35,188 bases of DNA from Funneliformis mosseae (Eukaryota > Glomeromycota > Glomeromycetes > Glomerales > Glomeraceae). The notes beneath the pieces are model-generated. The model was not told the origin of the DNA. It saw only the letters and a list, made by a program, of their open reading frames with translations, and made no database searches. Below are positions 2,560 to 16,981 of this stretch, piece by piece. Made by a program: the position numbers and the translations under genes. The stretch's first letter is position 1. Each line of letters begins with the position of its first letter. Location of the stretch: contig CAJVPP010000350.1 of the NCBI GenBank assembly GCA_910592005.1, forward strand, positions 1 through 35,188, written 5' to 3'.

Positions 2560-4306
2560 TAACAAATATAATTTGTCTGAATTAGGTTTAGATGATTACA
2601 AAAAGAATGAATTAGTTCTTGAAACTGTATATGACTTAGTATTATTTTTCAAATAATCTAACTGCATTTGTTGCTATACTTCAAATAATAAAGAAATTAT
2701 AAATTGTTATGAAAAAGTAGGATTTAAGCATTTTTTTGAATGACTCATTCAATTAAAAACTTTAGATAAACATGAACTTGAACTTCATATAAAATCTCAA
2801 TTAATGACTTTTAAAATTAGTAATGAAAAAAATAATAAAATAACTTAAAAACATAGTTATAGATATAATTATAATATATCTTTACCTTTTTGTAAAATAG
2901 TCTATATAAAAATGTGTGGTATTAGTGATTATAAACTTTCTATGTTGCAAAACAATTTATATGCAAATGGATTAACAAAAAGAATATATAGCAACACTGA
3001 TTATACATCTAAATGTGAAATACGAATTTATCTTGAACCAAGTATTACATTTCCAATAAACTAATTTTTAATACAATATAGAAATATTTATGAATTGCTA
3101 TCTCCTATGAGACATCGAAATGATTCTGATGTATTTATTTATCTTTCAACTAGAAAAACATATATGTCAATTTATGAAGAATTTAAAGAACATTTTTATA
3201 TAGAATATAATGAGTCAGATAAAGTTATATTATACAGTACATTTAAAAAAATTTAGTAAGAAACAATACCAAATTTAAAATTTCAATCTCATGCAAGTGA
3301 TTTATGTAAAATATGTGAAAGTTTTAAAGCTTAAATACAAATTACAAAAAATAATGTTAAGGAATTTGAAAATATTAAAATTCAATTTGAAGAACATAAA
3401 TTAACAGCAAAACAAGAAAGACAAAATTATAATAATATAATTAATAAAGCTAAATAAGATTCTACTATTACAAATATATATTATGATTGGGTGTAATATT
3501 TATCTATGCCATATATACCTCAACAAGTTAGTTCACTTTATTTCAAATCTCCTTTTATAGTACATTTATTTGGTATTTGTAAAACTGATAAAGGATAAAA
3601 TCATCAATTAAATTTTATTATTGAAGAAAATGAACTTTCAGAAGGTATATTGAAAGGAACTAATACAATACTAAATATGATATATAAATTTCTTTAAAAA
3701 ATTAGACATTTAGAAAAAGAATATTTATATATTAATTGTGATAATTGTATAGGACAAAATAAGAATAATTTATCTCTTTAATTTTGGTCTTGGTTAGTAA
3801 TGTTAGGTTGATATAAAGAAATTACAATAAATTTTATGATACCTGGTCATACTAAATTTATATGTGATGCTTTTTTCAGTCATATTAAAAAAAAATATAG
3901 AAACTAAATAATTAATATTATTGATGATATTAAATTAGTTATAAATAATTCATCAACAGAAATTAAAGCAATTTTATATAATAATGTATAGGTTGGACTT
4001 GGTATGACTTTAATTTATTTTTTAAAAATCATTTTATAAAACTTCCTAATTTAAAAACATATTATTATTTTAGTTTTAGTAGTTTACCAAATGATATTAG
4101 TAAAGTTTATGTATCAAAAAAATTAAATGATAGAGAAAATTATTAGATAGTGATAATTTTAATAAATACAAGCAACTTAGCATAATTCCTACTGCATCAA
4201 TAACAAAGAAAAGGTAAGAATACTGTATTCTAAAATTCGTCAATATATAAATGAATCATACAAAAATATATATTGTGCAAAACCTGCAAATTATAATAAA
4301 AAATAA
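2560..4306 (+). pseudogene. Decayed transposase-like gene (GQNKN motif)
   Basis: One continuous frame runs from about 2563 to about 3985 interrupted by 14 stops (11 TAA, 1 TAG, 2 TGA). After one frameshift near 3985 it continues to a stop near 4305. Recognisable blocks in order are a cysteine pair in SDLCKICESFKA (near 3300), YFKSPFIVHLFGICKTDKG (near 3540), the acidic block INCDNCIGQNKNN (near 3735), MIPGHTKFICDAFFSHIKK (near 3835), WTWYDFNLFFKNHFIKLPNL (near 3995) and a tail resembling KIRQYINESYKNIYCAKP. This layout matches a large family of integrase-like transposase proteins common in fungi and cnidarians (I think the DUF7869-like group; name not certain). Most stops sit where CAA would be expected, consistent with C-to-T mutation and not random decay. 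Confidence 0.75.
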
Positions 4307-6395
4307 GATTATTAGATTATTAATGATAATTATATTGATCATTTTCAATTTAAAATGTTAATCATGTTGATCATTTTCTAAATCTATTTTTAGATTTATT
4401 ATAAAAAAAATTAAAATGCAGATCACTTATTCTTAATATTAAGTTAATATATAATAAATTTTAACTGATTAAAGTTTATTATAATAAAGTAAAAATCTTA
4501 ATTTTGTTTGAAAAGTTTCAGAACTCTATTTTCTTAGATCATAACCATATATTTATAATAATTTTATAAAAATCAATTAGTCTTTCTCTCTCTTTCTCTT
4601 TAGAAAGAAATTTATAGTAAATAAGTAGATAAATTTGCTACAATTTAAGGGATAAATAAAAATATTTTTATTTAAATAAAATATACAAATATTAAAATAA
4701 TAGATTTTATAAATAAATAAATATATTATTATTGATCTTTATTTATTAAATATAAATTTATTTATAAATAATAAAAGTATATTAATTTTAATAAAATAAA
4801 TAAATTATTATTTACAATTATTTATAAATTAAGTAAATAAAAAATTTTATCTGAATTTAAATTATTTAAATTATTCTAATTTAAATAAAAAATAATTTAT
4901 TTTAATTATAATTTATAAAAAATTTTGTATTTATTTTATATTACTATTATATTTTTATATAATCACTCTTTATATAAGTATAACCTCTATATGTTTACAA
5001 TTTTCTTACATTAAAATCTTTAATTAAAAAATTATCTCTATATAGTCATAATAAAATTATAATTATTATTATACTAATATTTGCTTTCAAGTTCTTTTTT
5101 AATAAATTAATAAAACCTTTATATAATTATATTATATGATATTATTTATTTTTATAATCTTAAAAAATTTATCAAATTTTTTATTTTTTGAAGTATTATA
5201 TTATTAATTCTTTATTTTAAAAAATTTTTAAAATAAATTTTATAGTAAAGGAATTTATTTTTTTTTATTTTTTTATTATTAAATTTCAAAAATAATTTTT
5301 AAATTAAATATTTTTAGTATTAGAATTAGATCTTATCTAATTTTTAATAATAGATTATTAGACTTTAGATATAATAAAAATGTATAATTCAATTCTAATT
5401 TGACTATGATTATATAATTTTAATCAAATTATAATTATATATATTATAATTCTGATCAAATTTATAATACTAACTTAACTTAAAATTTGAATGATAATAA
5501 AATCATTATTCTTAAATGAATGATAATAAAATCACTTTAATTATATGATAATAAAATTGTTTAATTAAAATTATTATACAAAATATCTAGATACTTATAT
5601 TAAGAGTTTAGAAGAATTTAATTATTTGCCAAATTTTATATAAGTAGTAATTAGTAATTTAATAAAATTCTGATAAATATTAATAAAAATGATTTATATA
5701 ATATACATTTTATTAATTATTATAATTATGAATATATTATTAAAATTATATATAAATTTATAGTTATTAAACAAAGTTTATAGTCTCATAGTTTAATTTT
5801 AATAGAATTGAAATAGACTAAACTATTAGTATAATAGTTTAATAGTCTAAAAATCCATTAGTTCAAAAGATCAATATTAAATATTTTTATTAAATTTATT
5901 TATTTTATATTATTCTTTATATTATATTATAAACTTGTTTTTATAGTTAATAATCAATATCACTTAATATAATAAATTTAATATTTAGGTCATTTAAGCT
6001 TTTATTATAAAAAATTTATATTATTAATGTGTAATTTTTTAGATTGTAACTATTAGACGTAATGTTAGAAAATTAACTCTTTTATAGCTTATATAGTAAA
6101 ATTTATAGTTTATAAGTTAAATAAAGTTTTATTATATACTGAAAAATATATTTAAACTTTTGATAAATATATAATTTATTTGCTATATACTGTTAAATAT
6201 ATTTAATATATTGTTAAGTATTTTTTTTTCTTTACATGTGATAGCTTTGCATAATCTTTATTTAGAAGTAAAGCAAAATTTTACAAAATTACAAATTACA
6301 AGATAGAGAGTACAAAAATTTCTATTTAGTAAAAAACTAAATCAAAATCAACCTTGCACTGTTTTAGACTAACCTACCTAAATATACTTAGAATA
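4307..6395. other. Very AT-rich spacer without genes
   Basis: About 2 kb composed almost wholly of A and T with stops in all frames. Short local repeats occur, such as AATGATAATAAAATCA repeated near 5490-5560 and an ATATACTG..AAATATATTTAA word near 6135 and 6185. A CTCTCTCTTTCTCTTT stretch lies near 4583. Nothing here resembles a gene or an RNA. Confidence 0.7.
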
Positions 6396-6399
6396 GGTT

Positions 6400-9345
6400 T
6401 AATCATCCAGTACAAGAGGTGTGGTTGCTACTGATCTAAAAATTTAACCAGTTCGTATCAAATCTAAAGGAAGAAATAAAGTATGGGAGAATACTAAATT
6501 TATGTGATGATGAAGGGAAGCCTGTTTTGGTGAAATGTAATTTTCAATCATTGAGTGAGATGTTATTGAAGTTTTTAAAAGATTTGATGTCATTGCAATG
6601 ATCAAGCCAGATGGATTTTATTTGTGAGAATATATAATGGTAAGTAGAAGATAGAAGACTATTTGTTAAGTGAATGTTATTAATAAGGTGATGTGTTTTG
6701 TTAAATAGGAGAAGGGGTACAATTCCTTTGATCAAGTCAATAAAGTTAAGAAAGTCAGGTTGATTATTTAGAGACCAGATGGTTAAATCTAAAATATCCA
6801 TAAAATCTTGAGTGTCTGAAGCCAATGTAATTAGATATTGTATGAAAAAATTTTTGGTTGAGGATATAATGTCAATGAATTAGTGTGCAATTTTAGCACA
6901 AGTCCAAACGTGATTAAAAGTTTCATAAGTACACAAGCATCTAGGACAATTCCATGATTGGTTATACAGATTCGGGTATCTTATTTTGAGGATTTCTAAT
7001 GTAGAAAGCAATTCAAACATAAGTTTAATTTTAAATTTGTGAATGGAAAAGGCTTTGAAGGATGTATAGGAGTTGTTTTCATTATCATTGAGAATGAAAA
7101 AGGTTCAAATCCAATCAACATCCATTGTATTGTATTTCTTGAAGTATGAAAGTAGTTGTATATTATGAAAATCGATTGATCTGAAAAGGTCTTTCACAAA
7201 CAATCTAGGTAGAATAAGTACAATATTCTCATTAAAATAGAAATTATAATGATATCCTAGAAATTTGTTATTTGGTATGATTGGAAGACTATCAGCTTTT
7301 GCTAATGCATCAACTACATTATTATAATGATCATTTGAGTGTGCTTTAACTTTGTGGAGTTCAATAAAGATAGATTTTTCTCTGATTAACTTTATGATAA
7401 GAAACCAAATTGGGTAGAAGGAGATTTTAAAAATGGGGTTAAAAGTAGAAGAGAAGGTGTAGAAATAGTCTATTTTATCAAAAGATGAAATGATATTTTG
7501 TGAATTTGTGAAAATATTGACTGCAGCATTTATAGGAGCTACATATATAGCAGATAGTATCGCTACTAGTTCTGCTAGAGAAGATGAGGTTAAGGAAAAA
7601 TAAGTGTAGCATTAAAAGAAAGTAGAGGTGCTGAAGGATTAGTTTGCAATCAGGCCACGCTTATACAGATTGAAGAAGTATCTAAGTTGATAAGGAAACC
7701 ATCAGTATAAAATGAGAGGTTAGTTAATTGTATGAAGTGACTTTTGAAATTATCTAAATTATTAAGGATTTCTATATTAAATAATTGATCAGCTGTGAAA
7801 GATGGAGGGGACAAAGTAAGGAGAACAATAAATGTACTATTATTCATTATAACTATGTAAAGCAATTTCATAAAGCATATAAGGGAACAAAGAACAGATA
7901 TGGCTAACAGTTGGAAGAAGAGGAGCTTTGATATCAGTATACAAGTGTAAAGGAAGAATCACAAAGCAAACTTTATGTTTATTTCTCATATTAAAAGAAA
8001 TAAAGAAAGAATCATTGTTGAGAGAATATTTAGTGTATGGTAATAATAATGTTTTGAAATTTGTCTGACAATGCATTAAAATGTTGTAAGTGAACTATAT
8101 CATTTTTGATTCTGAGTACCTTGCTGATTATAGCAGAATGGGAGTTTAAATGCTAATCTATAGCAAAGTATGTAGTACTTTTAATATGAGTCAGAGAAAT
8201 TGAGTATATATTATTAGTATGTGAATGATGATAATTTGAGAAAATAATTTTTGTGTTAGGTGATAATATGAGTAATAATTGTAATTTGAGAAACCAAGTA
8301 GGGGCCTTAGGAATTGCCAGACGAGCTGCTGAAAATTTGAGGTCAGGTAATATGAAGAGTGCTGCACTATCTGATATTGTAATTAGTCAAGAAACATAAG
8401 TTTTTTGCTTCTATAGACTAGAGTAAAGGTACAATAATCTGTTTTGTTAAAAATTTCATATAGGGAAAATATCCTCCTTTTATACAATTATCATCAGTAT
8501 TACTATTAGAAATGGTAATATTGAGTGATTTTAGGGCAGAGAGTAAAGCAGACCACCAGTCTTTAAATTTGAAAAAATCATCATACGGCCAGAATGCTAA
8601 AGGTGATTTAATAAGCTATTCATTATTTTAGAGCAATCTAGAGCGAATCAGAGATGTAGTGCCTAATAGATCTTTGTCATTGATAGATTTAATGAAGTTA
8701 GAAATTTTTGCTTGAAGTTGCGCTGAATATAGGTGTGTAATGTTATAAAATAGTGATGAATAAATAATGGCTGCTGGAGTACTTTTGGATAAATAAAGGT
8801 TTGATTTAAAAATTTTTTGATACGATCCTATCATCTGATCACAGAATTTTTAGTTAAGAAATGTTAATTGGATGCGATACAAAATTCTTGGCAATAGGAC
8901 TGAGTTGAAGACTACTTTAAGTTGTTTATCTGTGAGGAATTTCTTTTTGATTGTTAAGGTAACATTATAAATTTCATTTTTTATTTGTTGTCTTATAAAC
9001 TGGCAGTTTAGAAGGAAAGAGATCTTAATATCTAGATAATGAGTGGATGATTTGAGATCCATTAGTTTAATCCATTCTTTATTATACATTAGTCTAAAGT
9101 ATATAGATGATGCAATCAGTACTGAAGAAAGTAATACAGATTTATCCCAGTTAACTAGAATACTATTGAGTTAGTAAAAATCATTAGCTATTGTTAAGAA
9201 CAATTCAAGATCATCCTTAGATTTACTGATCCACAGGATATCATTTATATAGGTAAGTGTGAAGACTTGTGTTGAAACTGTAGTTGATGGGTATCACTGA
9301 TATGTAGGTATCATTCAGCTGATAGATTATAATCAAGGTCAGTAT
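6400..9345 (-). pseudogene. 5'-truncated LINE remnant (RT, RNase H, CCHC-like tail)
   Basis: The minus strand carries a non-LTR retrotransposon. From high to low coordinates: the end of a reverse transcriptase palm with TQVFTLTYINDILWIS (near 9265-9215; the YxDD box reads YIND), an RT thumb region (9090-8630), an RNase H domain beginning FYTDGFLINLDTSS (near 7705), then SSLAELVAILSAIY (near 7585), IFTNSQN (near 7515) and HKVKAHSNDHYNNVVDALAK (near 7355), and a C-terminal module ending SWNCPRCLCTYETFNHVWTC (near 6950-6895), a Cys/His zinc-finger-like motif. There is no endonuclease or RT finger domain: similarity stops near 9345, as in ordinary 5' truncation. Several stops replace Trp or Gln, and at least one frameshift lies between the RNase H and tail frames. 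The tail resembles Rhizophagus LINEs as I remember them. Confidence 0.85.
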
Positions 9346-9644: not shown

Positions 9645-10170
9645 TATAAAAATTAATAAATATTATATATCAGATAATTGAAATAGATTAATAATAACAA
9701 ATCATTACTTCAGTATTAATATAAATTATTATAAACTATGAAATAAGAACTATTGTACATCTAAAACATTAATTTATATTACTTTAATAAATAAATTTAA
9801 TACAGTATTTGATTTTATATAATTCTAATTTGTTAACACAGTATTATATAAAGAAAAATTGATTAAAAGATACATATTTATATTATACCTGATCTTAAAT
9901 TTTGATTAGTCAATTTGTAATAAACAGATAGACATTACGTAGTTTTGACTGTAACAGAAGTATTTTTTGCTATACTTCAGATAAAAATATTTAATATAAT
10001 TTAGTAAAAATTAATAAGCAATTTTAATACAAGTTTAACAAAAATTTATTACAAATTAGTCAAAATTATAAAAATAATGTGAATTATTAATATAATTTTA
10101 ATAAAATTTCAATATCAATATAAGAGGTGTTAATTAATCTATATAATATTATTATATCACTATTTTATTA

Positions 10171-10333
10171 TATGGGACCTTTGCAATAGAAAGGGGGGAA
10201 ACTGCCGGAAAAAATCAATTTTACTTTTATATGCCAAATATGATTTTTAAGTCAAAATATGTTCAGATTTAGCATTAACTCAATTTTTATTTTTTCCAGT
10301 CATTTCTCCCTTTTCTATTGCAAAAATCCCATA
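10171..10333. mobile_element. MITE with about 45-bp terminal inverted repeats
   Basis: The left end TATGGGACCTTTGCAATAGA (10171) and its continuation to about 10215 match the reverse complement of the right end (about 10285-10333, ending TCCCATA) with few mismatches. The core is about 70 bp and non-coding. Ends start TGGG and stop CCCA inside TA dinucleotides, the target-site pattern of Tc1/mariner elements. A GC-richer patch of G and C runs makes it stand out from the surrounding AT DNA. It is non-autonomous and would need a transposase in trans. Confidence 0.8.
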
Positions 10334-12700
10334 TTATTACATAAAAAATTAAATTATTTATATAAAAGATTTTATTAAGATTTTTTACTTTATATTTAAT
10401 AATAGAACTATTAAAATAATTAATAATAATTTTTATAATATATAAATAAATAAAATTAAAATAAAAAAAAATTTAAAATTATCCTAAATAATATAATTTA
10501 ATTTTAACTTATCAATATATATAATAATATAACTTGTATAATAAAGTACTTATTAAAATATATTTTAATTTATTTTACAAAGATTTAGTACAACTTTTGA
10601 AAAAAATTTTTAAAAAATCTGAATTTTATTTTTTAGTATTATAATAAATAATTTAATTTAATTTTAATAAATATTTTTGATTGTATAAAATTAAATTAAA
10701 AATAATTAATAAATACATTTCTTTTTATTATATTTTATTAACTTTTAAAATTTTATTCTTTTTACATTCTTACCTTTTTATATATTTTATATACTTAAGT
10801 TTAAAAAAATTATATTCTGTAATAAATGATGATATAAAATAACAAATATGTATGTATATTATAAAATCTAAAAAATAAAAGTAAAGCATAATAATAAATT
10901 GGTAATATATTTTAATAAATATAATGAAAACTTAAATGTTGATAAGTTAATAATTTTTAAGATTATTAAAATAAGATAAATAATTAGTATTTTTTCATTA
11001 TCAAATAATACAAAAATTTTTTATCATTAAAAAGTTAAACATTCACAAATTAGGATTATGAATAAAAAATATAAATGCTTATAATCTAAAAATAATAATT
11101 AAAAAAGGATCTTTTTTGTATAATGATTTAATATTCCTCATGAAAATATATTTTTTTCAAATTATTAGTTATAAAAATTCAAAAGGCATAATAATATTTG
11201 TAAATATTATTTATAGTAAAGTAAATAATGTATCTTTAAAAACTTTTTTTATCTGCTTTTACTTTAGGTATAAAATAAGTAAGTAAATAAAAAAATAATT
11301 TTATTATTTATTATTTTTTATAAAAAAAAAAATAATTAAATTTTTTTTAGAATAAATTTTATATTATTATTCTTTTGATTATAAATATTACTAATACAAA
11401 AAATTTAAACTACCTATAATTGATTTTTTAAAAAATCTTAAATATTTTTATCAGATTAATTATAATATAAGTATATATTTTATTTGTATCTAATTGCATA
11501 ATTATATGAAAACATAATTGTATTAAATTTCTTAATAATTAATTTAATATAAAAAATTTACTTATTTATTTATTAAATTAAATTTAATTCAAAATATATA
11601 TTTATTAAAATCTATTTTAATATTTATAAAATATTAAATTTAAAATTTGATTTAACTTTAAATTTAAAAAAAAACTTTATTAAATTTAAGTAAAATATTT
11701 ATTATAAATAAATAATTATTAAAAATATGTTAATTCAAAAATTATTATATATTATTACATAAGAGAAGATATTGATCATAATGATCTAAAAGATGATAAT
11801 GATTAGTAAAAAATTATTTATGTCTTGTATGTTTTGTATGTTATCTATACCATTTATTTTTTTCTATTTAATATATTATTTCTATTTATTTTATTATATT
11901 TATATTATTTATTTATTATATTATATTTATTTTATTATATTTATATTATTTATTTATTATATTATATTTATTTTATTTATTATATTTATTTTTTTTTATT
12001 ATATTAATAACTTTATGTATTTCATTTTTTATAAATAAAAAAGTTTTCTTTTATCTTAGTAGTATATTTTAGAAATAGTTTTATTAGATACTTTACTTTA
12101 ATTTTCCTAATATATTTATATAATACAGAATACTGACTAAAGCAATACTCATTATTATTGTTATTAAAAATTTGTTTATTGATCAATACTACTTTTAATT
12201 TAATTATAAAAATCAAACCTTTTACTTACTATTTGAAATCATCGCATTACTTATCACTTATAAGCATTTTAAAGAACTGATTGTAATAATATCTTTAATT
12301 TAAATTAATATTAATTTAAATATAAATTATAATTTAAAAATTTATTAAAAATATAAAAAAAAAAATTAATTTTACTTTATATATTAAATATAACTTTTTT
12401 AGTTAAAATAAATTTAGATTTGAATATTACTTTAAAATCAAATTTTGGTTTATTTTTATTATAAATATTTATATCTGTTATTAAAAATAATGATTAAAAA
12501 TATTTTATTTATAAAAAGCTAAACTTTATTATATTTATTAATTTTATATTATTAAAAAAACTTTATGAATTTTAACATTTATTAAAAAGCATACATTTTT
12601 AAGTTTATTTTGAAAATATTATCTATCTATAATTAATTAAAAAGTAAATCCAAAATAGGTTTAGATAAGCAATCTTATCAAAAAGTTTATTATATAGATT
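10334..12700. other. Very AT-rich spacer without genes
   Basis: Nearly pure A/T sequence. At 11870-12010 a microsatellite-like run of TTATATTATTTATTTATTA units (about two copies of a 40-50 bp unit) creates open frames coding only Phe/Ile/Tyr/Leu; these are composition artefacts. No gene, RNA or complete element is visible. Confidence 0.7.
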
Positions 12701-12876: not shown

Positions 12877-15800
12877 ATGCTTGATTTCTTTACAATTTTA
12901 ACGAAAGGTGGAATTGTTCTTTGGTCGAAATCTTTTACTCGCATTACGTCTTCTCCGGTTGATGCCTTGATTAAGGATGTATTGATTGAAGAGAGAGCCG
13001 GTGAAAACAGCTATATTAAAGATTCCTATAGCTTGAAATGGACATTCGCAAACGAATTAGATCTTATTTTTGTGGTAAATGTCCAATAAAGTGAGTTGTA
13101 CTGTTGGCTTGAATTAAATACTTACAGGTTTGAGCTTGACTTAAGACATTACAACAATGCTAACCACGACTCTTTAGATTTTTATACTTGTAACTTACAT
13201 TTTTGATAACCATTTAGGCTGCTTATCAGAAAATTCTTCAACTTGCATATATTGAGGAACTTCTTGCTACCGTTAAGAAATTCTTTTGTGATAAATTTGC
13301 TGAACATATTCGAAACACAAGTAGTATTCACAAATATGCATTCGATGATGATTTCAACACAATATTCAATAATATCGAAGAAAAAGATTCGAAGGTTTTA
13401 AATTTTCTTTGTTCAAATCTCTAAATATGTAGATAGTTAATTGTGTCGTATTTTGAATTATCTTTTTTAGGGATATGATAAATTATCTAAACCGCGACCA
13501 TTTGAACAAACTAAAAAATTTAAAGAAACAATTGAAGGATCGAAGAAACTTAGTGAGTTGATTCATAATAACATAAGTTTGATCCATTAGAAGATAAATT
13601 TTCTTAAAGATAACTTTTTTTTTATATTTAGGTGTGAATGATATAACAAAACCACCCACGATCCCCATCATCAGTGATGATAAAATTGCCCGCAATATTG
13701 AAGCAATTCGTGGAAAGCCTACTCGAGGCCGTGGTGGACGAACTAAATCTAGAAGTAGCAAACCGTCCAATGAGTCCTCATCAGAGTAAGCGAATACAAA
13801 TAGATGCGTTACATTCGGTTTATTTATAATTGTAGTATTAATTTTTATTATATCGAATATATCAAAGTGATAAAAAGCCAACTAGAAAGAAAACATTGCG
13901 TACATGGGAAGACAAAATTTCAAAAGATGAAATGGAAAGTTTGGATTATAGTGGGAACAAAGACGATACAGATAGGTCATCGGCAGTAAATACACATAAT
14001 TTGGTTGATCAAAACCAATTTGGACAGTTTCAAGACGGACATTATGAAGTGCAGGATCTGGGTCAAAATGATAGTGATAAATCAGAGGAGGATGATTATG
14101 ACGAAGAAAATGAAGAATCAAACAAAAATGATAGTCAATCTAGCGTGTTTTCATTTTTCAGGAACATCACTGGACAAAAAGAAATTACACAACAAGATCT
14201 TGTTCCGGCATTAGCAAAAATGAAGGAACATTTAATTAAAAAAAATGTCGCAGCTGACATTGCAACTCATTTATGTGATTCTGTTGCAAGAAATCTTGTA
14301 GGGCAAAAGACTGGAAGTTTTAAGAGTAAGTTTTTTTAAAGTCGGTATATTTATTGTTTTAAGTGAATCCGTCAATTAATAAATTACCATTAAATCAAAT
14401 TAAAAGGCATTCAATCAACTGTGAAACAATCTATGGAAGTATCATTAAAACGAATACTCACACCAAAGACATCAGTTGACTTGTTACGTGATATTGCACA
14501 AGCTCAATCTGAATCACGTCCTTATACAATTTGCTTTATTGGAGTAAATGGTGGGTTTCGAAATTCCTTATGTGATAACTTTTCATTTAAATAAAAAAGT
14601 ATATATTGACAATTCATATTATTATAGGTGTTGGTAAATGCTTTGCAAGGGGGACCAAATTTTTAATGTACGATGGTACATACAAAAATGTTGAAGAGCT
14701 CACTGTTGGTAATCAAATTATGGGAGATGATAACAGCCCAAGGACTATTCAATCTACTACCAGAGGTGAAGGCAGCATGTATCGTATTTTCCCAAATGAT
14801 AAAGGTCCGGCCGAACCTTTCGAATGTAACGACCAGCATATCCTAGTGCTTAAATTCGCTGCTAACCCATTCATACAAAGTGGTGAAATTCCTATCACTG
14901 GATTTCACCCCAGAATTCGTCTCTTCTGGTATGAATATGACGAGGTGAACAATATGATAGTTAAAAAGACCGATTCTTACTATTACGGTCCTGGAAAACT
15001 TTATCTTAAAAAAGAAGCAGCTAAGAAAGCAGCGATACAAGATATGGCGAGAAAACCCAATCTCGCAATAACAGATTTTATTTGGGAGGTACCGGTCAAG
15101 GATTTCTTAACCGCGTCATATGATGTACGACGAAATTGTCTTATGTTTAAACCAAGCAAAGTTATTTTTAAAGTAGCACAAGGAAAATTTCGTATTATTT
15201 TAAGCGAAATTCTTGGGATTGATCCTACGGATTCTCAGATTTCAGCTGCTGCTTGGCTCGTTGGTGCATGGATTAGTAATGGACTTGAAACCTCGCCAAC
15301 AATATGTGTCAACGAGAATGAAATTGAAATAGTGAAGGCGATGGAAAAATATGGTGAAACGTTGAATTGGAAATGTATTAAAGATAATTCAAATAAAGAA
15401 CAACAGAGAATTTCATTTATTCATGGTAGCGGTTTTGAAAGCGAGTTCTTACGTCTTCTCCGTATGCTCGATATTTTGGATGCTAAAAAAGTACCACCAG
15501 TCATTATGACCGATGAACTCGATCAGGTTTGATATATCTTTATATTACATAAGGTTGCCTTTTTCATAATCTTTTATTCAACTTTCTTGGTTTATAGGTT
15601 CGTTTGCCTCTCCTTGCCGGAATCTTAGATATTGGCGGGCATTTACTAGAAAAACAGAAGGGATCTTACGAGTATATCTACCAATCTCCACAGAAGCGAT
15701 GTAACATCGTTGAACAAGTTCGTAATTTGGCCAATTTATCAGGATTTTGTTCCATCAATGTTAAGAGAAGAATGAAAGAGGTTTCAAATAATATAACGGC

Positions 15801-16981
15801 ACCATATTTTTATACAACCATCACTGGTAATGAGTTAGATAAGCTTCCATTAATCGTATCACGTAAAAAGGTATGTAAACACCGTGATTGCAACCTTAAG
15901 CTAGACAATCGTGATATGGTATGGAGCTTTAAAGTGGTGAATGTTGGCCTTGGTCCATATTACGGATTCAAAGTTGATAAAAACGAGCGCTTCTTATTGG
16001 CGGATTTGACTGTGGCCCATAATGTGAGCGAATCTTTTTTTTTTTTTTAAAAAAAAAAAAGTTATATTTGTGTTAATAATTAAATGCGCTTCTCTTGTTT
16101 AGTCTACAAATCTATCGAAGACTTGTTTTTGGTTATTACAAAATGGATTAAAGGTCCTCATTGCAGCGTGTGATACTTTTAGATCAGGTGCCGTAGAACA
16201 ATTAAGAGTGCATGTTAGAAATTTGAATGCTTTGGGCCAAAATTCAACTGTTGAATTATATGAACGTGGATATGGCAAAGATGCTGCCGGGATAGCAAAA
16301 GATGCAGTCAACTATGGTATTTCTTGGATATGATTATATGATTTTTGTTTTAGCTGATAATTTGAATATATTTGTTTAATGCAAAGATATATCTTTACCC
16401 TTAGCAAAAGCAAATAAATTTGATGTCGTATTGATCGATACGGCAGGACGTATGCAGGACAATGAACCATTAATGCGTGCGTTAGCGAAGGTATTGAATT
16501 TAATGAAGTTAATTGCGACATATCTTTATGCGATCTTTTTAATAAATTGTTCGCCCTGTTTTATTTTAGCTGGTATCTGTGAATAATCCAGATAAAATAA
16601 TATTCGTTGGCGAAGCTTTAGTTGGGAATGAAGCAGTTGACCAACTTACAAAATTCAATCAAGCATTGAAAGATTTTTCTGGATTGCAAAATCCGCGACA
16701 AATTGATGGAATGATCTTGACGAAATTTGACACAATTGATGATAAGGTTTGTTGATATATGATAATCGTTAAGATTTTTTTTAAAGATACTTTGGAAATT
16801 CTATGGAAATCATCTATATAACGATTAATGATCCAAAATTTTTTTTTGATAGGTTGGTGCGGCTTTATCGATGACTTACACAACGGGGCAACCGATATTA
16901 TTTGTTGGAACCGGACAAACTTATACAGATTTAAAGAATATGAGAGTTGGACATATTGTGCATGCTCTCCTTAGGGAATAA
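12877..16981 (+). CDS. SRPR: SRP receptor alpha subunit with intein in P-loop
   Basis: Alpha subunit of the signal recognition particle receptor, the GTPase at the ER membrane that docks SRP-ribosome complexes. Exons by sequence and frame: 12877-13074, 13218-13394, 13471-13552, 13632-13785, 13886-14325, 14407-14550, 14628-15526, 15598-16023, 16103-16316, 16387-16490, 16570-16746, 16853-16981; every intron is GT-AG and phases agree. The 1047-residue precursor becomes 609 residues after removal of the 438-residue intein (animal SRPR alpha is about 640). Start [16 protein letters not shown] is the typical SRX start, which binds the beta subunit; a charged linker with [10 protein letters not shown] and an acidic stretch follows, then the N domain ([20 protein letters not shown]) and the G domain. 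G motifs: GVNGVGK|STN (split by the intein), [37 protein letters not shown]. Identity is very sure; exact exon ends are inferred. Confidence 0.96.
14551..14627 (+). other. Intron within P-loop codons, 11 nt before intein
   Basis: A 77-bp GT-AG phase-1 intron (GTGGGT..TTATAG) splits the second Gly codon of the P-loop (GVN-G-VGK). Only 11 coding nucleotides separate its acceptor from the first intein codon, so the intein coding unit is nearly bounded by introns on both sides. Confidence 0.9.
14639..16023 (+). mobile_element. VMA-type intein with degenerate LAGLIDADG endonuclease
   Basis: Intein of 438 residues (296 codons at 14639-15526, 142 at 15598-16023) inserted after the P-loop Lys. Block [14 protein letters not shown], with Cys1. 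Block [12 protein letters not shown], His67 kept, the usual Thr at position 64 is Asn. Residues about 115-180 resemble the DNA-recognition region of PI-SceI. First LAGLIDADG-like motif [11 protein letters not shown] (206-216): the acidic position is Asn214. KKVPP (283-287) keeps the Lys-Pro segment. Second motif [12 protein letters not shown] (301-312): the acidic position is Gly309. C-terminal blocks: [19 protein letters not shown] then AHN, with His437-Asn438 followed by Ser as first C-extein residue. The resemblance to the yeast VMA1 intein is strong at both ends. I infer active splicing with a probably inactive endonuclease. Confidence 0.93.
15527..15597 (+). other. Spliceosomal intron inside the intein
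   Basis: A 71-bp GT-AG intron (GTTTGA..TTTATAG), phase 0, separates codon 296 (Gln) from codon 297 (Val) of the intein, just before the second LAGLIDADG-like motif. Frame and homology both require its removal: KKVPP..DELDQ joins to [14 protein letters not shown]. It indicates that the intein has resided in a spliceosome-using nuclear genome long enough to gain an intron. Confidence 0.9.
16024..16102 (+). other. Intron exactly at the intein/C-extein junction
   Basis: A 79-bp GT-AG intron (GTGAGC..TTGTTTAG), phase 0, follows the intein's last codon (AAT, Asn438) and precedes TCT (Ser+1). It contains a run of about 14 T followed by about 12 A. Without removal, translation ends soon after [10 protein letters not shown], so the mRNA must be spliced for the intein to have its C-extein. 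Confidence 0.9.

Follow-up and report, generated by a model that had tools for sequence, protein, structure and literature searches.

The SRPRα gene and its interrupted P-loop

The window analysed here, a stretch of 35,188 nucleotides from Funneliformis mosseae (contig CAJVPP010000350.1), contains a gene for the signal recognition particle (SRP) receptor alpha, SRPRα, in which the GTP-binding loop (the P-loop, or Walker A loop) is divided by an in-frame insert that is very probably an intein. The gene, the parts of the divided loop and the introns close to them are as follows.

12877-16981, + strand: SRP receptor alpha (SRPRα/Srp101) gene; 12 exons, single open frame, precursor of 1047 residues
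12877-13074, 13218-13394, 13471-13552, 13632-13785, 13868-14325 and 14407-14550, + strand: SRPRα exons 1-6 (exon model)
14628-15526, 15598-16023, 16103-16316, 16405-16490, 16570-16746 and 16853-16981, + strand: SRPRα exons 7-12 (exon model)
14541-14550, + strand: P-loop part of the N-extein, GVN and the first base of the next Gly codon, ahead of intron 14551-14627
14551-14627, + strand: spliceosomal intron in the P-loop codons GVNG/VGK, phase 1 (GTGGGT...TTATAG)
14628-14638, + strand: P-loop part of the N-extein, (G)VGK, bases GT GTT GGT AAA, abutting intein Cys1
14639-15526 and 15598-16023, + strand: intein of 438 residues, Cys1...His437-Asn438 (PF05203, PI-SceI match, orthologues P0008-P0012)
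15257-15283, + strand: first LAGLIDADG motif, degenerate, LVGAWISNG, with Asn at the PI-SceI Asp218 position (from the alignment, in exon-model coordinates)
15527-15597, + strand: spliceosomal intron of 71 nucleotides within the intein, between both LAGLIDADG motifs (GTTTGA...TTATAG)
15610-15639, + strand: second LAGLIDADG motif, degenerate, with Gly at the PI-SceI Asp326 position (from the alignment, in exon-model coordinates)
16024-16102, + strand: spliceosomal intron of phase 0, lying precisely where the intein meets the C-extein (GTGAGC...GTTTAG)
16103-16120, + strand: C-extein STNLSK, beginning TCT ACA (Ser-Thr), as aligned with human SRPRA GVNGVGKSTNLAK

All 11 introns of the exon model have GT-AG borders. 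When residues 409-846 are subtracted from the precursor, a 609-residue SRPRα is left, on which the SRP-alpha N-terminal, SRP54_N and SRP54 GTPase domains (PF04086, PF02881 and PF00448, respectively) score above cut-off, and of which the top match in the PDB set is the SRP receptor alpha chain 5l3q_B (human SRalpha by title, E 2.3e-153). The locus is identified as SRP receptor alpha because of these three SRP-type domains and this match. The P-loop of human SRPRA can be aligned without gaps to GVNGVGK plus STNLSK of the 609-residue product, and the insertion point lies exactly between these two halves, directly behind the Walker A lysine.

The insert runs from the TGC of Cys1, starting at 14639, to the AAT of the last asparagine, ending at 16023, and has a computed mass of 50.07 kDa. 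Pfam Hom_end_hint (PF05203) is matched over residues 1-437 with 80.2 bits (E 2.9e-22, curated cut-off 32.1), and PI-SceI across residues 1-438 (E 2e-15), while a profile search of the intein with PF05204 (Hom_end) gave no match. The motifs were compared over six SRPRα inteins, namely that of the window and P0008-P0012, from F. caledonium, Rhizophagus irregularis (two proteins), R. diaphanus and R. clarus. All six have Cys1, the N-terminal nucleophile of block A; all carry the block B histidine within NDQH (ECNDQHILV in the window); and all end in His-Asn followed by Ser (TVAHN / STNLSK in the window). An earlier note on this DNA, made from its letters, had placed an intein in the SRPRα P-loop. 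This is borne out by the PF05203 and PI-SceI matches and by same-site copies in Rhizophagus and F. caledonium, and the proposed coordinates (14639-16023), 438-residue intein, 609-residue product and intein mass of about 50 kDa all hold in the exon model. The PF05203 score, the PI-SceI E-value, the F. caledonium copy and the same-site Rhizophagus copies are also the reasons for regarding the resemblance as more than chance.

The genome searched is an 82-Mb assembly in 4154 contigs, in which Hom_end_hint matched the SRPRα locus and PRP8 on contig C1479, with no other match. The PRP8 intein, at about 14671-16374 (- strand) of that contig and at about 3170-4887 (- strand) of locus L012, occupies at least two exons, has the C-terminal junction SHN/CKDLKHLI and carries N and T at the catalytic Asp positions.

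Distribution among fungi and decay of the endonuclease

The intein itself was searched for over the length range of the precursor, and the P-loop was read in the best 120 of 6635 SRPRα matches. These 120 consist of five intein-bearing precursors and 115 other proteins, some of the latter being metagenomic and nameless. An intein at the same site is found in the GenBank protein P0008 of F. caledonium and in four Rhizophagus proteins (two from R. irregularis, one each from R. diaphanus and R. clarus). P0008 is nearly the same as the window sequence, with 436/438 intein residues and 586/587 aligned extein residues identical; the inteins of the three Rhizophagus species, at the identical site, have 65-69% identity to that of the window. 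An uninterrupted loop of the GVNGVGKST type is present in 111 of the 115 others, including those of Diversispora, Gigaspora, Ambispora leptoticha, Entrophospora and Acaulospora. In the remaining four (P0027, P0030, P0033 and P0038) the loop could not be read. P0030 carries additional residues at that point, P0033 is without a loop and P0038 without STNLSK, and these three were scored as misses rather than as evidence; P0027 is discussed below. The simplest reading of this distribution is that the intein was acquired once, before the split between Funneliformis and Rhizophagus and after their divergence from the other sampled glomeromycete lines. In five of six species pairs the intein has diverged 2.3-3.4 times as much as the extein, and in the closest pair 1.5 times as much; these ratios are in line with vertical descent.

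Predicted proteins suggest that two of the introns may likewise be common to both genera. The fragment P0001, which is 86-87% identical to three Rhizophagus inteins, ends ...DELDQV, where intron 15527-15597 starts in the window; the R. irregularis model P0002 restarts at (V)RLPLL and is interrupted behind SHN; and the reading GVN-DLT-STNLSK in P0027 implies an exon start at STNLSK. Together these point to introns 15527-15597 and 16024-16102 being shared by Funneliformis and Rhizophagus. Without the intein, exon 7 of the exon model would be only 11 nucleotides long; therefore at least one of the flanking introns is probably younger than the intein.

Both LAGLIDADG catalytic aspartates, the presence of which was taken as the mark of a homing intein, are absent from all six SRPRα inteins. 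The positions of PI-SceI Asp218 and Asp326 are occupied by Asn and Gly in Funneliformis, by Gly and Ser in R. irregularis and R. clarus, and by Gly and Asn in R. diaphanus. Because both catalytic aspartates have been lost, the intein should no longer home. Comparison of the window with P0009 of R. irregularis gives 69/90 identical residues in the N-terminal splicing part and 32/38 in the C-terminal part, as against 118/199 in the endonuclease part and 74/105 in the linker. These regional identities fit selection acting on splicing while a dead endonuclease drifts.

Predicted protein splicing and its alternatives

Taken together, these observations argue with high confidence for a class-1 intein of the PI-SceI (Hom_end_hint) type between the P-loop lysine and serine of SRPRα, which would splice itself out to leave the 609-residue receptor, should be dead for homing and is probably inherited with its gene. 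In the predicted sequence of events, the introns would be removed from the mRNA first and the 1047-residue precursor would then splice: Cys1 would attack the Lys-Cys bond, the N-extein would pass to Ser+1, Asn438 would cyclise with the assistance of His437, and the exteins would be joined as a 609-residue receptor with an intact GVNGVGKST loop. Before splicing, the division of the GTP-binding loop would leave the receptor inactive. The P-loop serine, a Mg2+ ligand in such loops, would also be the presumed splicing nucleophile. In the Funneliformis/Rhizophagus line the intein would be passed on with the gene, and it would persist there since any deletion but an exact one would leave no working P-loop. 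Judging from its conserved motifs, the intein is probably competent for splicing; its splicing is presumed to be efficient and constitutive.

In a rival reading the insert is removed at the level of RNA, or an isoform lacking it through exon skipping is the working receptor. The introns at 14551-14627 and 16024-16102, on either side of the intein, could be taken to favour this, as could the R. irregularis protein model P0027, which lacks most of the intein. However, a transcript that left out the exons enclosed by these two introns would have a phase-1 end joined to a phase-0 end, with the loss of VGK. Excision as an intron was one of the outcomes that the earlier note had named as contrary to its proposal, and among 14,171 enumerated GT/GC-AG donor/acceptor combinations there is none that rebuilds the P-loop: GVNGVGKSTNLSK results from 0/14,171, and from none of a narrower set. 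RNA-level removal is thus most improbable.

The other such outcome was a second, intact and intein-less SRPRα copy, with the locus in the window unexpressed; in a wider form of this reading the locus is a degraded or non-splicing one. An assembly split into 4154 contigs could be missing a copy, which leaves some room for this. Yet the locus retains a full open frame, its extein is conserved (296/314 residues of the NG part identical to R. irregularis) and the same precursor is present in three Rhizophagus species. Furthermore, no second SRPRα was detected in the assembly, where searches for SRP54-type GTPases matched the locus in the window and contig C126 alone, the latter encoding an SRP-type GTPase with 32-38% identity in the matched pieces that is taken as SRP54. 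Nor did a degenerate pattern for the empty intein site match anywhere in the assembly, an allele with an intron at K/S being one that would escape it. A functional intein-free copy elsewhere is accordingly considered highly unlikely, if marginally less so than removal from the RNA.

Several points nevertheless weigh against a self-splicing intein in SRPRα. Protein splicing itself is a prediction. Block B has an asparagine in place of threonine, the classical motif carrying Thr at the position where the SRPRα inteins have Asn; yet Asn is also found in most of the relatives examined, including PI-SceI (register NATH). AlphaFold modelled the F. caledonium precursor poorly (mean pLDDT 51, pTM 0.31), and the model was not used for claims about fold; in its Foldseek list the GTPase part of SRα (rmsd 3.4-23) appears along with PI-SceI (rmsd 13-17). 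The finding of a single copy comes from a fragmented assembly, with an empty-site pattern blind to an intron at K/S. Finally, the SRPRα model P0027 of R. irregularis (DAOM 197198w) has no intein. The proposal that P0027 represents an intein-less R. irregularis allele was rejected, as VGK is absent from its loop (GVN-DLT-STNLSK). P0027 resembles a product of forced gene modelling more than a working allele, the intein and VGK perhaps having been lost to forced introns, and other R. irregularis SRPRα models retain the intein.

If protein splicing does operate, it might be conditional, with redox state, metal ions or temperature setting the level of active SRP receptor and so gating secretion. 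P-loop inteins that behave in this manner are described in publications on DnaBi1 of Mycobacterium smegmatis, which responds to oxidation, and on RadA of Pyrococcus horikoshii (PMC6195587, PMC5790916). Besides Cys1 and Cys63, the four SRPRα inteins compared have in common the cysteines 167 and 331 (intein numbering), which are absent from the related helicase inteins P0013 and P0014. However, these shared cysteines may be due to chance or structure, and an intein with a dead endonuclease in an invariant loop would be expected to persist without any benefit. Conditional splicing is speculation, and improbable.

Two further features of the window lie outside the SRPRα gene. An open frame at 7105-7608 (- strand) has an RNase H domain (PF00075, 1.6e-08) and is probably the remnant of a retroelement. 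The regions at about 4000-6000 and 10000-12000 have a G+C content of 9.5-14% and contain tandem repeats, the nearby SRPRα region having 31-36% G+C.

Relatives, possible origin and significance

A known system close to the SRPRα intein is PI-SceI, the VMA1 intein of S. cerevisiae (PF05203, PF05204), which has the same full-length architecture, the same Cys1 start and the same HN end. The residue at position +1 of the VMA1 intein is cysteine. The SRPRα intein differs in its host gene and insertion site, in having Ser at +1, in the loss of both catalytic aspartates and in the spliceosomal intron inside it. The closest relatives found outside SRPRα are the inteins of two metagenomic SF2 helicases, P0013 and P0014, which have 40.7% and 36.7% identity and occupy the same GK/S-T position; the hosts are helicases, and P0013 retains both catalytic aspartates while P0014 has neither. 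The fold predicted for the P0013 intein is like that of PI-SceI (1jva_A, matched by Foldseek with 3.6e-26 and a target-length TM-score of 0.67). The eIF5B intein of Coemansia (P0017, P0020) is likewise fungal and located in the P-loop of a GTPase (GHVDTGK/C...HN/TK), but in another gene, with 25-28% identity and one of the two catalytic aspartates left. M. smegmatis DnaBi1 and P. horikoshii RadA are, as in SRPRα, inteins of a P-loop, there of ATPases (PMC6195587, PMC5790916), and the account of DnaBi1 has its P-loop serine doubling as a catalytic residue in splicing (PMC6195587), as is proposed for SRPRα. These are, however, described as prokaryotic mini-inteins without an endonuclease, DnaBi1 belonging to class 3, and the conditional splicing shown for them is speculative for SRPRα.

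Related inteins were found in 17 proteins other than SRPRα. The insertion is at GK/S or GK/T in 12 of these, inside the Walker A loop in one more, and elsewhere in four (terminase, topoisomerase II); for this count the intein start of P0024 was set separately. At 31 viral-contig loci (28 + 3, with near-duplicates among them) the site is GK/S-T in 20, inside Walker A in seven and other in four. The corresponding figures for 55 bacterial-genome loci are 47 at GK/S-T, four inside Walker A and four unreadable, but these loci are not independent, because 49/55 have an RPxMGK loop of a host that we presume from the motif to be DnaB-like. The strict pattern [GA]xxxxGK[ST] fits 62/86 of the viral-contig and bacterial loci. 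It is as if this intein superfamily were specialised for Walker A loops. One superfamily is observed at the same GK/S-T site in many unrelated NTPases (helicases, ATPases, eIF5B, DnaB-like proteins and SRPRα) of fungi, viral contigs and bacteria; the proteins concerned are P0005, P0007, P0013-P0015, P0017-P0022 and P0025, and the loci are among L013-L098.

When P0007, which has a long branch, is left out, the SRPRα inteins form one clade with P0013 and P0014 (bootstrap/SH-aLRT 100/98), and the SH-aLRT of this clade with P0007 included is 98. The branching above it was not used, since long branches meet there (VMA1 with PIF1-like, eIF5B with Ski2-like). Ranked by Foldseek E-value, the first match of the predicted P0013 model, which is better in its intein part, is an A18-like helicase of Pithovirus LCPAC304, with overall TM-scores of 0.33 and 0.39. 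That the host of P0013 might be a giant-virus A18-like helicase is only a lead. Scans of the viral contigs with the whole of P0013 and P0014 found no relative, and scans with the helicase C-terminal parts found 53 loci, none of which exceeds 37% identity in its best segment; this is too remote for a virus family to be named.

A viral origin of the SRPRα intein appears possible from these comparisons. In support are the helicase relatives, the common GK/S-T position and the 1.5-Mb giant-virus region described for R. irregularis strain 4401 (PMC10640383); against it are the absence of any close relative of P0013 or P0014 in the viral scans and the distance implied by 40.7% identity. A fuller scenario, offered tentatively and with reservations, is that the intein came from a lineage targeting Walker A loops, jumped from the P-loop helicase of a glomeromycete-infecting giant virus into the GK/S-T site of SRPRα, lost its endonuclease and was then retained in the Funneliformis/Rhizophagus line, where the secretory pathway would need its removal as a maturation step.

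SRPRα is apparently an unreported host gene for inteins. The earlier note did not count SRPR among the known fungal hosts, and Table 1 in Green et al. 2018 (PMC5784728), which gives seven common host genes of nuclear inteins without SRPRα among them, agrees with this. Two R. irregularis inteins are also reported there; the passages concerned leave their host genes unnamed, and one of the two could be that of SRPRα. Among the literature matches listed, judged by title and start of abstract, there was none on an SRP-receptor intein. P-loop inteins are already known as a kind; what appears to be new here is the unexpected, presumably essential host gene.

The nuclear genes known as intein hosts are few. 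SRPRα would add one that is presumably essential, in arbuscular mycorrhizal fungi, which live with most land plants. If splicing is the sole route to the receptor, these fungi owe each active SRP receptor molecule to it. The locus also allows two questions to be tested: is an intein that no longer homes retained only since clean deletion is impossible, and do P-loop inteins pass from one NTPase to another, unrelated one, also from giant viruses to fungi or the reverse?

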